Assembly: GCA_024742485.1 (NCBI GenBank) | Contig: JANSYK010000003.1 | Coordinates: 124,001 to 188,000, forward strand | From: Alphaproteobacteria bacterium | GTDB lineage: Bacteria; Pseudomonadota; Alphaproteobacteria; Rhizobiales; Rhizobiaceae | DNA: 64,000 nucleotides | Direction of reading: 5' to 3' | Shown here: positions 20,377 through 23,996 of the stretch, piece by piece | How the letters are laid out: the number at the start of each line of letters is the position of its first letter | Position numbering within the stretch: position 1 is the first letter of the stretch | Program-made: the position numbers and the translations under genes | Notes under the pieces: generated by a model | Told to the model about the DNA's origin: nothing | The model's database searches: none | What the model saw: the letters and a program-made list of their open reading frames with translations, nothing else

Positions 20377-20760
20377 TCAGTCCAATGCTGGCGCGGACTG
20401 AGTTAGCGTAACGGCAATCAGATGCAGGGCACCAAAGAAACCGGTGCCGATAATCAGTGTCCACGAACCCGGATTGTTGAACTCGTAGGCGGGATGCCTG
20501 CGAAACATCCAGTGCAGCCCGACATGCAGGACAGCGAAAGCGGACAGGCCCAGGCCTGCCAGGTCATCCGGGTTCGGTAGGACCCACCAGAAAATGGCGA
20601 TCAGGATGGGCACATGCGCCCAGAGAAACACCTGACGGCCCACAGGGTCCGGCAGAAAGCGCGTCAGCGGCAACACCCGCCACTCATGCCGCTGCATGGC
20701 GTCCAGTTCATGCACGACGAAAAACGAGAGCATCAGATTGAACATCAGGTGGGTCATCAT
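20377..20760 (-). CDS. Small four-helix membrane protein (HELDAM motif; possibly DUF6713)
   Basis: A 127-aa integral membrane protein with about four hydrophobic segments, starting MMTHLMFNLMLSF. The conserved-looking HELDAMQRHEW segment near residue 18 and the VLHVGLHWMFR segment suggest the small DUF6713-type membrane family; that assignment is from memory. Start is at the double ATG with AGGAG about 12 nt upstream. It is convergent with the acyl-CoA synthetase gene. Function unknown. Confidence 0.7.
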   Translation of the reverse strand: MMTHLMFNLMLSFFVVHELDAMQRHEWRVLPLTRFLPDPVGRQVFLWAHVPILIAIFWWVLPNPDDLAGLGLSAFAVLHVGLHWMFRRHPAYEFNNPGSWTLIIGTGFFGALHLIAVTLTQSAPALD

Positions 20761-20904
20761 CCAGTCACGGGCTCCTGACAGCTAGGCCGTTTCACGTTTT
20801 GTCAGAATTGGAATGTGTGACGTCCAGACCGACCATCAGTGCCGTTCCTGGACCACAATCACCACACCGACTTCTTCTGATTATTTGCGCCAGGGAATGA
20901 AAAT

Positions 20905-20934
20905 ACAACGCGGATTACAACGGTGCCCACCACG
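20905..20934. repeat. Three hexamer direct repeats at 12-bp spacing upstream of DUF1127 gene
   Basis: ACAACG at 20905, ACAACG at 20917 and ACCACG at 20929 recur at exactly 12 bp. They lie 45-74 bp upstream of the DUF1127 start. The same array occurs upstream of the homocysteine methyltransferase gene at 22965. Spaced direct repeats are the typical target of SARP-type activators, and one is encoded between the two arrays. Confidence 0.65.
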
Positions 20935-20949
20935 TTGGGCTGTCATCAC

Positions 20950-20973
20950 GTCTCCGCAAATCAGAACGGAGAC
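20950..20973 (+). promoter_or_regulatory. Hairpin that covers the DUF1127 ribosome binding site
   Basis: GTCTCCG (20950-20956) pairs perfectly with CGGAGAC (20967-20973), a 7-bp stem with a 10-nt loop. The downstream arm contains the Shine-Dalgarno sequence six nt before the ATG at 20979. The structure could limit translation until opened. Confidence 0.45.
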
Positions 20974-20978
20974 CGATT

Positions 20979-21254
20979 ATGAGCACTTTCTTCAGCGATG
21001 CCGTCAATCGGACGGCTTCACCCGTCAGCAGATCAACCATCACAACCTGGCTGGCGACAGTCAAAAGGATCATGCGTCATATCGCACATTTGCACCAGGC
21101 CAGACTGACCTACAGGCGCCTGTGCGAACTTGATGATCGAACACTCAAGGATATCGGCCTTTGCCGGTCTGGCTTGATGTTTTACAAACACCGCGAGGCC
21201 TTTCATGACATGAACGAAATCTCGCAAAAACCCGGGCACAGGGACGAATTGTGA
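20979..21254 (+). CDS. DUF1127 domain protein
   Basis: A 91-aa basic protein whose central part (RRLCELDDRTLKDIGL, about residues 46-61) is the DUF1127/YjiS signature. Small DUF1127 proteins in alphaproteobacteria are linked to RNA turnover and phosphate or stress responses. This one has a non-conserved N-terminal extension of about 40 residues and a short acidic C-terminus. The leader carries the 12-bp-spaced repeat array and a hairpin over its ribosome binding site. Shares the 14-nt TCAGAACGGAGACC with the methyltransferase gene leader, implying co-regulation. Confidence 0.88.
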   Translation: MSTFFSDAVNRTASPVSRSTITTWLATVKRIMRHIAHLHQARLTYRRLCELDDRTLKDIGLCRSGLMFYKHREAFHDMNEISQKPGHRDEL

Positions 21255-21263
21255 GCGGAAACA

Positions 21264-21287
21264 GGACCGCCGATCTGTCGGCGGTCC
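21264..21287. terminator. Bidirectional terminator hairpin
   Basis: A perfect 10-bp GC-rich stem (GGACCGCCGA with TCGGCGGTCC) and a TCTG tetraloop lie in the 40-bp gap between the convergent DUF1127 and SARP-like genes. There is no long T-tract, so it may be only a partial terminator. Confidence 0.6.
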
Positions 21288-21294
21288 GTCGCGA

Positions 21295-22914
21295 TCAGAT
21301 GCCGTTTTCAGTCAGAAACGCCGAAATCCCGTCCCGACAAACCTCCCAGGCCGGCTCGTGTCCAAGCAGTATATGATTGCGGCTGTCGAGCGGCACGAAA
21401 CGGGCATTCGGGATGCCCGTGGCAACCTCGCGGCCCTGTTCCAATGAGATCCGCTGATCATCCCGGGAATGGAACACGATCGTTGGCACCTGCACCTTAT
21501 CAAGGCGCTCGCGTACATCGATATTGCCGAACGCCTCTTGAAATCGCACGGCATTTTCCGGTGAGGTTGTCAGCCTCTGGAACTCATCGAACCATTCCAG
21601 TTCTTCCGGCTTGGCGTCCGGCATGAAGGTCTGGGAAAAGATATGCCGGTAGGCCGCGTTGTTGGTGCCCCATCCGTGTTTTGTGAGCGTGTACACTGCC
21701 TCCCGCCGTTCCCGCTCTTCCGCAGACGCGCCGATGCGCCAGCCGGTGGCATAGCCCGAGACCAGCACCAGCCCGGACACCCGTTCGGGGTGTCGCACGG
21801 CGTATTCAATTGAAACGGCGCAGCCCTGTGAGATGCCCAGCAATGGAAATCTCTCCAGTCCGAGGGCGTCGACGACGGTTTCCAGATCACGAACGAAAGC
21901 CTCGAAACTGATGTCATCGACCTCCCAGTCCGAAAGACCGTTTCCCCGTTCATCATATCGGATAAATGTCCGGTTCTTTGCTGCCGAGCCGAAGGTCCGG
22001 CCCCAGATCGGGCTGCCCCAATCCAACTCGAGGTGGTTCAGCCAGTTGGCCGCTTTGACCAGTGGCGGTCCCGAGCCCACTGACGCATGGGCAATGCGCA
22101 CCCCATCATTGGCCCGGCAAAATCCAATTGTCTGTTGGCGCAACTGTCTGCGCGGGAAGACATCCCTTGCTTCGCCGGCGGCCACGTCCACCGGCGGCCC
22201 GTCTTCTGGTTCTTTACGGTCGAAGTCGGAAACGTCGATGTCGGCTTCCGCCGCCGCCCGTCTGAAATCCCGCGCAAATGTCTTTGCTTCATCTTCCCGA
22301 CCCGCGGCAGAAAGGGCGGAGACCAGCGTGCGTGCGGCGTCGAGATGATAGGGATCGGCTTCGTGCCAGTGACGCGCCCATTTGACAATTTCTTTTGCCT
22401 CAAGTTCCGGATGAAGGGCAAGCCGTCGAAAAACATTGATCGCCATCAGTCGGCCGTCTTCGCGTTCGGCGGCGAGCCAGGACTGAAAATCATCCCTGCC
22501 GGCATTGTTCAGGCCTTCCATCAGCGGGTAGGAAAGGTCGTCGGCCATCTGCCTCAACTCGGCCGGTGGAATGAAAGGCGGGTCGTCAAAGAGACGGTTG
22601 CGGATACGCACAAAGTCAATGTCGACACCCGAGGCATCGAGGGCAATGCGTTCGCGGTCGGCGACAAAATGCTTCACATCATCCGTCTCGATCGCGCTGC
22701 GCAATTTGCTCAGCGCCCAACGCAGGGAACCCCGCGGATCGTCGGGCAGATCCCAGAAAAGTTCGCAAAGACGCTCCCGGCGGTGCGGCCGGTCGGTCGC
22801 ACAAACAAAGCCGAGCAGCGCACGGGCCTTGCGGGACGAGGGCAGGGGAAGTTCCACACCATCGCGAAGGATGCGAATTTCGCCAAGAAGGCGGATCTGC
22901 GTTGTCTGGGTCAT
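21295..22914 (-). CDS. SARP-like transcriptional activator fused to an alpha/beta hydrolase
   Basis: A 539-aa protein with three parts. Residues 1-95 form an OmpR-type winged helix as in SARP/AfsR regulators (IRLLGEIRILRDGVELPLP, then SSRKARALLGF). Residues 100-245 are a BTAD-like helical domain. From about 265 an alpha/beta hydrolase domain runs to the end, with nucleophile Ser362 in GISQG, an acid in HSRDD and His in RNHILLG. A hydrolase used as a ligand sensor, or as an active enzyme, is plausible. Start ATG at 22914 is preferred over an upstream TTG. It is divergent from the methyltransferase gene, and the repeat array lies between them. SARP proteins are best known from actinomycetes. 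Confidence 0.85.
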   Translation of the reverse strand: MTQTTQIRLLGEIRILRDGVELPLPSSRKARALLGFVCATDRPHRRERLCELFWDLPDDPRGSLRWALSKLRSAIETDDVKHFVADRERIALDASGVDIDFVRIRNRLFDDPPFIPPAELRQMADDLSYPLMEGLNNAGRDDFQSWLAAEREDGRLMAINVFRRLALHPELEAKEIVKWARHWHEADPYHLDAARTLVSALSAAGREDEAKTFARDFRRAAAEADIDVSDFDRKEPEDGPPVDVAAGEARDVFPRRQLRQQTIGFCRANDGVRIAHASVGSGPPLVKAANWLNHLELDWGSPIWGRTFGSAAKNRTFIRYDERGNGLSDWEVDDISFEAFVRDLETVVDALGLERFPLLGISQGCAVSIEYAVRHPERVSGLVLVSGYATGWRIGASAEERERREAVYTLTKHGWGTNNAAYRHIFSQTFMPDAKPEELEWFDEFQRLTTSPENAVRFQEAFGNIDVRERLDKVQVPTIVFHSRDDQRISLEQGREVATGIPNARFVPLDSRNHILLGHEPAWEVCRDGISAFLTENGI

Positions 22915-22964
22915 CCGGCTCAAACCGCTTTTTAGGTCAAATTCAACGGCTGTTCGCCGAAAAT

Positions 22965-22994
22965 ACAACGGTGATCACAACGATGGCAACAACG
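22965..22994. repeat. Three perfect ACAACG direct repeats at 12-bp spacing (SARP-like operator)
   Basis: ACAACG occurs at 22965, 22977 and 22989, exactly 12 bp apart, in the 146-bp divergent region between the SARP-like regulator and the methyltransferase gene. A TCAACG at 22943 may be a fourth unit, 22 bp upstream. The array is a near copy of that at 20905. Confidence 0.7.
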
Positions 22995-23060
22995 GTCCGG
23001 TGGTCAAACCGCAATCTGACACATCCACCAATCAAATCTGTCAGAACGGAGACCATCACC

Positions 23061-23996
23061 ATGACCAGCGCGAACGGATCACTGCCGCATCTCATCGACC
23101 AGACCTGTCTGACGGACGCCGGGCTCGAAACCTGGCTGATCTTCCAGAAAGGAATCGAATTGCGGGAATTCGCGGCGTTTGAACTTCTGCAGGATCCCGA
23201 AGGTCGAAGCCTGCTGGACGCCTATTTCAATCCCTTTCTGGCCATGGCGGCAAGGCAGAACAAGGGCCTCGTGCTCGAAACACCCACCTGGCGCGCCAGC
23301 CCGGACTGGGGCGAGACGCTCGGATACACGAAAAAGCAGATTTTCGACATCAACCGCGAGGCGGTGAAGTATCTCGACACGCTTCGCAGGAATTTCCCTC
23401 ATTCAGGCCCGGTTTTTGTAAGTGGCAATCTCGGTCCGCGCGGAGACGGATACGATGCTGGCACCATCATGAGCGTGGCCGAGGCGCAGGATTATCATGC
23501 ACTTCAGGTTGACGGCTTGACCCATGGCCGCAGCGATCTGATTTCTGCGCTGACGATGACAAATGTCCCTGAGGCAATCGGCATTGTCCGTGCCGCCGGC
23601 GAAGCCGACATTCCTTGTGTTGTCAGCTTCACGCTGGAAACCGACGGCAGGCTGCCGAGCGGCCAGGGCCTTCGCGACGCGATCGAGGAAATGGATTCAA
23701 ATGTCGCCAGCAGACCAGCCTACTACATGATCAACTGTGCCCACCCAGATCATTTCCAACACGTCCTGGAAGCGGGTGCGGAATGGACCGACCGCATAAA
23801 GGGTCTGCGCGCCAACGCCTCGCGCATGAGCCATGCCGAGCTGGATGCGGCAGAAGAGCTGGATGACGGTGACCCATTGGAGTTGGGTGGTCTTTATCGC
23901 CAGCTCGGGACCGTCCTGTCCGATCTGCGGATTATCGGCGGTTGCTGCGGAACCGACCATCGCCACGTTGAACATATGTGTGCCGCAATGCGATGA
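23061..23996 (+). CDS. Homocysteine S-methyltransferase family protein
   Basis: A 311-aa cytoplasmic TIM-barrel methyltransferase. The zinc-binding cysteines are present: Cys in INCAHP and the CC pair in IIGGCCGTDHRHV near the C-terminus. The N-terminal DAGLETWLIFQKG stretch matches the usual DGGxET-type start. Family members transfer a methyl group from S-methylmethionine or a betaine-like donor to homocysteine. The ATG at 23061 follows CGGAGACC; the ORF track starts 53 codons early, inside the operator array. It is likely activated by the adjacent SARP-like protein. Confidence 0.9.
   Translation: MTSANGSLPHLIDQTCLTDAGLETWLIFQKGIELREFAAFELLQDPEGRSLLDAYFNPFLAMAARQNKGLVLETPTWRASPDWGETLGYTKKQIFDINREAVKYLDTLRRNFPHSGPVFVSGNLGPRGDGYDAGTIMSVAEAQDYHALQVDGLTHGRSDLISALTMTNVPEAIGIVRAAGEADIPCVVSFTLETDGRLPSGQGLRDAIEEMDSNVASRPAYYMINCAHPDHFQHVLEAGAEWTDRIKGLRANASRMSHAELDAAEELDDGDPLELGGLYRQLGTVLSDLRIIGGCCGTDHRHVEHMCAAMR

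Follow-up and report, generated by a model that had tools for sequence, protein, structure and literature searches.

Homologs of a SARP-hydrolase regulator in alphaproteobacteria

The gene at 21295..22914 on the minus strand of the window (the whole 64-kb stretch of DNA analyzed here) encodes a 539-residue protein which combines an N-terminal domain, modelled as SARP-type, with a C-terminal alpha/beta hydrolase domain, and it lies between two arrays of direct repeats that recur beside the genes of its homologs. We propose, with a probability of about 0.75, that this protein is a large SARP which binds the arrays and activates the genes linked to them, and whose hydrolase domain gates the SARP domain.

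Domain architecture of the regulator

The gene models of the regulator, the DUF1127 protein (91 aa; 20979..21254, plus strand) and the homocysteine S-methyltransferase-family protein (S-methyl_trans; 311 aa; 23061..23996, plus strand) all held on checking, and the ATG of the regulator at 22914 corresponds to the same starting residue in its homologs. Residues 1-223 (22246..22914, minus strand) are predicted to form an OmpR-type winged helix (approximately residues 1-99) followed by BTAD helices (approximately residues 100-223), with a mean pLDDT of 93.9. A Foldseek search with this predicted structure recovered six PDB matches at E <= 0.001, every one of them a chain of AfsR (8k60/8hvr) or EmbR (2ff4/2fez), and a sequence profile of the domain matched the same two proteins, in agreement with the fold result. 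Of 22 homologs, 6 gave a Pfam match to BTAD and 3 to Trans_reg_C; in the window regulator Pfam recovered the hydrolase and did not detect the SARP domain, and Pfam alone was therefore rejected as a detector of this domain. The predicted structure, the profile and the Pfam matches of the homologs bear out the OmpR-like DNA-binding and BTAD domains ascribed to the protein in an earlier note on this DNA, and on the strength of the model its N-terminus is a SARP-type domain. Other BTAD-domain proteins, of different kinds, are also encoded in the same genome (G000:C120:317056, C154:925717, C44:56822 and C154:1816858).

The alpha/beta hydrolase domain spans residues 261-536 (21307..22134, minus strand) and its matches include esterases and 3-oxoadipate enol-lactonase. 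It shows the Ser-Asp-His triad and nucleophile elbow of this fold: Ser362 (codon 21829-21831), the elbow serine in the motif GISQG, Asp486 (codon 21457-21459) and His514 (codon 21373-21375) are invariant across 22 homologs, which favors the previous suggestion, centered on Ser362, that the domain is catalytically complete. Inspection of translations revealed the same hydrolase family in fusions with CadC-like winged helices and with class III cyclases; the host's own genome has one fusion of each kind (L006, L007), and further ones are found at L051-L053, L063 and L070. The triad is retained in the eight fusion proteins that were aligned, except for an Asn in place of the His in the own-genome cyclase fusion, indicating that catalysis is not kept in every fusion. 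The repeated fusion of the hydrolase to other signalling modules makes it plausible, and no more than that, for it to be a sensor domain. Alternatively, the SARP domain would bind the arrays and the hydrolase would have no part in sensing, being either an active enzyme or a structural remnant; the complete triad and the enzymatic nature of its closest families could be read in this way. We regard this as rather unlikely, because the family is joined to three kinds of signalling module, a pattern common among input domains, and because the cyclase fusion has lost the catalytic His.

Repeat arrays and promoter geometry

Array 1, ACAACGcggattACAACGgtgcccACCACG (20905..20934, plus strand), lies upstream of the DUF1127 gene with hexamers at 20905, 20917 and 20929, and array 2, ACAACGgtgatcACAACGatggcaACAACG (22965..22994, plus strand), lies in the gap between the regulator gene and the divergent methyltransferase gene, with hexamers at 22965, 22977 and 22989. 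In both, the three hexamers recur with a period of exactly 12 bp, confirming the earlier observation of two leaders with ACAACG-type hexamers at this spacing; the third hexamer of array 1, ACCACG, is still within this type. The array pattern has 2 matches in the 64-kb window against 0.02 expected, and none of 100 shuffles reached 2. A distal hexamer, TCAACG (22943..22948, plus strand), situated 22 bp upstream of array 2, had previously been missed.

An alignment of 35 sites yielded a consensus heptamer, TNCMACG, which together with a 5-bp spacer gives the 12-bp period. Part of the sites additionally show an AT-rich stretch and a hexamer 22 bp upstream, the latter being exact at -22 in 9 of 30 sites and at any other offset in at most 2. 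Downstream of the repeats, A is found at +40 in 25 of the 35 sites and is favored at +42 too; both this column and the distal hexamer fall outside the motif used for site finding. Taking the A at +40 as position 2 of a -10 hexamer would leave 9 bp between this element and the last repeat hexamer, and the conserved column would then place -10-like elements at CATCAC (20944..20949, plus strand) downstream of array 1 and, one base off the modal register, at TCAAAC (23004..23009, plus strand) downstream of array 2. In known SARP sites the direct repeats follow each other at 11 or 22 bp, with 8 bp between the final repeat and the -10 element (PMC10936776), and spacers of 4-15 nt between SARP heptamers are allowed in a review (PMC10972967); the geometry of the arrays fits these published sites apart from the 12-bp period. 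Conserved arrays at a fixed distance from a -10-like column would thus correspond to the operator typical of SARPs, in which direct repeats closely precede the -10 element.

Association of the arrays with SARP genes

We scanned 299 genomes of the host's family with a motif built from 23 sites. All 15 matches of at least 20.6 bits were confined to the 13 genomes that have the regulator, as defined by a P0001 match at E <= 1e-90; taken alone this result is partly circular, since 12 of these 15 sites had served for training. The best match in a genome without the regulator reached 20.0 bits and lay within a coding repeat, and genomes without these SARPs yielded chance-level matches only. To remove the circularity we used leave-one-out scoring, in which the motif for each locus is made from the remaining loci. 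This recovered an array in 25 of 26 full-length homolog loci, L084 being the sole failure, with scores that no more than 2 of 200 sequences from a first-order Markov model attained; the positives include loci that contributed no site to the motif, and some of the arrays are weak. Absence of the repeats from orthologous loci, which the earlier note had named as evidence that would tell against its reading, is thus restricted to one locus. Hydrolase homologs on other N-termini have no array: their loci score 0.5-13.4 bits, with the control loci being mostly shorter, and the SARP loci, with two exceptions, score 15-38 bits.

A few individual matches deserve mention. In Mesorhizobium waimense (L032) the regulator frame is called in separate pieces, suggesting that the gene may be broken, and the array is kept. 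A two-unit array precedes a FecR-domain gene and a CHASE2 cyclase gene at L142 (G684), and may be due to chance. We took as chance an exact double hexamer at G000:C102:22469, with no same-strand gene called within 2 kb downstream, as well as the matches at L146, L149 and L150, which fall within coding sequence.

Matches outside the training set pointed to a second SARP subfamily of about 680 aa that is devoid of the hydrolase; the one Mesorhizobium member scanned has TPR repeats in its C-terminal part. A protein search recovered this subfamily in 24 genomes of the host's family, and none of its loci (L140, L143-L145, L164, L172-L192) had been used for motif building. In 21 of 21 loci analyzed, which are related by descent and do not represent 21 independent events, the array is found at the 5' end of the gene on the opposite strand and is the top-scoring array of the whole 5-kb locus; in some it reaches into the opening codons of the predicted frame. 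A distant genome (G312), likewise unused in training, also has the array at the 5' end of its second-subfamily gene. At L140 and L143-L145 the gene is divergent from a cysteine synthase-like gene. Since the SARP domain is common to both subfamilies that carry the array, the array goes with this domain.

Conservation together with SARP loci and the SARP-like promoter spacing support the earlier proposal that the arrays are the operator of the regulator, and the array is very probably its docking site. One might envisage that another transcription factor, co-occurring with SARP genes, occupies the arrays and that the SARP protein acts elsewhere, since the divergent intergenic region around array 2 would be open to other factors as well. 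We consider this improbable, given that two SARP subfamilies with unlike C-termini and neighbors both have arrays at their gene starts, that genomes lacking these SARPs offer chance-level matches alone, and that the arrays agree with SARP sites both in being direct repeats and in how far they lie from the -10-like column.

Other features of the leaders

An identical 14-mer over both ribosome-binding sites had also been reported. The sequence TCAGAACGGAGACC indeed occurs exactly twice, at 20961..20974 and 23041..23054 (both plus strand), in each case over the ribosome-binding site. The corresponding stretches in the nearest relative (L081, regulator 81% identical) are TGACAACGGAGACC and TCGGATCGGAGATC, which differ from it such that only a Shine-Dalgarno-like core is retained. 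The exact match stands, and the 14-mer as a conserved element was rejected. Hairpins are possible over or beside the ribosome-binding site in the DUF1127 leader (20950-20973) and in both L081 leaders, with z of about -2 to -2.6; in the DUF1127 leader the 7-bp arms are GTCTCCG and CGGAGAC, the 3' arm being part of the first 14-mer copy. Such hairpins are predicted as a possible second layer of control. An RNA-level element as an explanation of the leaders was rejected, as a search of 20760-23100 gave no Rfam match. That the repeated leaders merely reflect local duplication or chance, with no regulatory meaning, might be argued from the shared and unconserved 14-mer and from the weak genome matches that fall by chance within coding sequence, but is scarcely credible in light of the 0.02 arrays expected in the window and the conservation of arrays across alphaproteobacterial families and in the second subfamily.

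The predicted regulon

The DUF1127 gene and the S-methyltransferase gene are the two likely targets in the window. A candidate third site of 21.2 bits was found elsewhere in the same genome (region L138:3869-6123), upstream of a gene for a 467-aa protein with no Pfam or NCBIfam match; next comes a methanethiol S-methyltransferase-like gene (242.6 bits, slightly short of the 270-bit cut-off). This third array is a probable site of the regulator. At the SARP locus L021 a homolog of the methanethiol S-methyltransferase-like gene adjoins an S-methyltransferase gene. Arrays elsewhere precede P450, OsmC-like, AurF-like, glutamine synthetase and STAS genes, and in Mesorhizobium they are again found before DUF1127 genes. 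To judge from these neighborhoods the predicted targets likely differ by lineage, and the methyl-sulfur theme suits some lineages only. The probable third site and the quite different neighbors of the homologous arrays indicate that the regulon is not the self-contained unit it had been thought to be. The genus mates G226 and G085 have methyltransferase homologs that are 53-54% identical, with no array beside them and no SARP-hydrolase match; the enzyme is hence not tied to the regulator, and we rejected their co-occurrence across the genus.

Proposed mechanism and implications

From the sequence and the predicted structure we infer the following course for our proposal. The SARP domain of the activator would bind head-to-tail along the TNCMACG arrays, often with an extra copy 22 bp upstream. 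As the array lies about 9 bp upstream of the -10-like element, the bound protomers would replace the -35 element and recruit RNA polymerase in the fashion of AfsR. The regulator would thereby turn on the DUF1127 gene, the S-methyltransferase gene and the distant pair including the methanethiol methyltransferase-like gene, and array 2 is placed where autoregulation is possible. Control would most likely reside in the C-terminal hydrolase, which might bind, and perhaps hydrolyze, a small ester or lactone to gate the SARP domain. Counting against the proposal as a whole are the 12-bp period as opposed to the classical 11 bp, the locus L084 without an array, and the weak arrays.

In more general terms, alphaproteobacteria might have their own SARP operator code (TNCMACG, 12 bp) in at least two subfamilies, in one of which a catalytically competent hydrolase would be the ligand receptor that gates the activator, controlling methyl-sulfur genes in this lineage. 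We advance this generalization tentatively, at somewhat less than even odds. A conserved operator for proteobacterial SARPs would make their regulons readable from genomes, and the hydrolase-fused SARP is a concrete test case for the conversion of an enzyme fold into a transcription-factor receptor.

Comparison with known systems

To our knowledge almost all known SARPs come from actinomycete antibiotic clusters, and none of the open-access papers retrieved describes, to judge by its title and the opening of its abstract, a regulator of the kind reported here. EmbR of Mycobacterium tuberculosis (2fez, 2ff4) is alike in the SARP fold and differs in its C-terminal part, which is a forkhead-associated phosphopeptide-binding domain. 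The hydrolase domain is distantly homologous to RsbQ and to the strigolactone receptor D14, which are hydrolase folds with roles in signalling; unlike the hydrolase here, which is fused to a DNA-binding domain, they stand alone, and any likeness in their working is by analogy only. SARP-LAL regulators such as PimR have three heptameric direct repeats in their operator (PMC10972967), as in the arrays described here, but these are 11 or 10 bp apart, and the proteins have an ATPase-type C-terminus and belong to Streptomyces polyene clusters. AfsR, the large SARP of Streptomyces coelicolor (8hvr, 8k60), resembles the present regulator in its winged helix and BTAD with extra C-terminal domains and in the direct repeats just upstream of the -10 element; it has an 11-bp repeat spacing and a C-terminus of the NOD-TPR type, whereas the regulator described here combines a 12-bp period with a hydrolase C-terminus in an alphaproteobacterial host.
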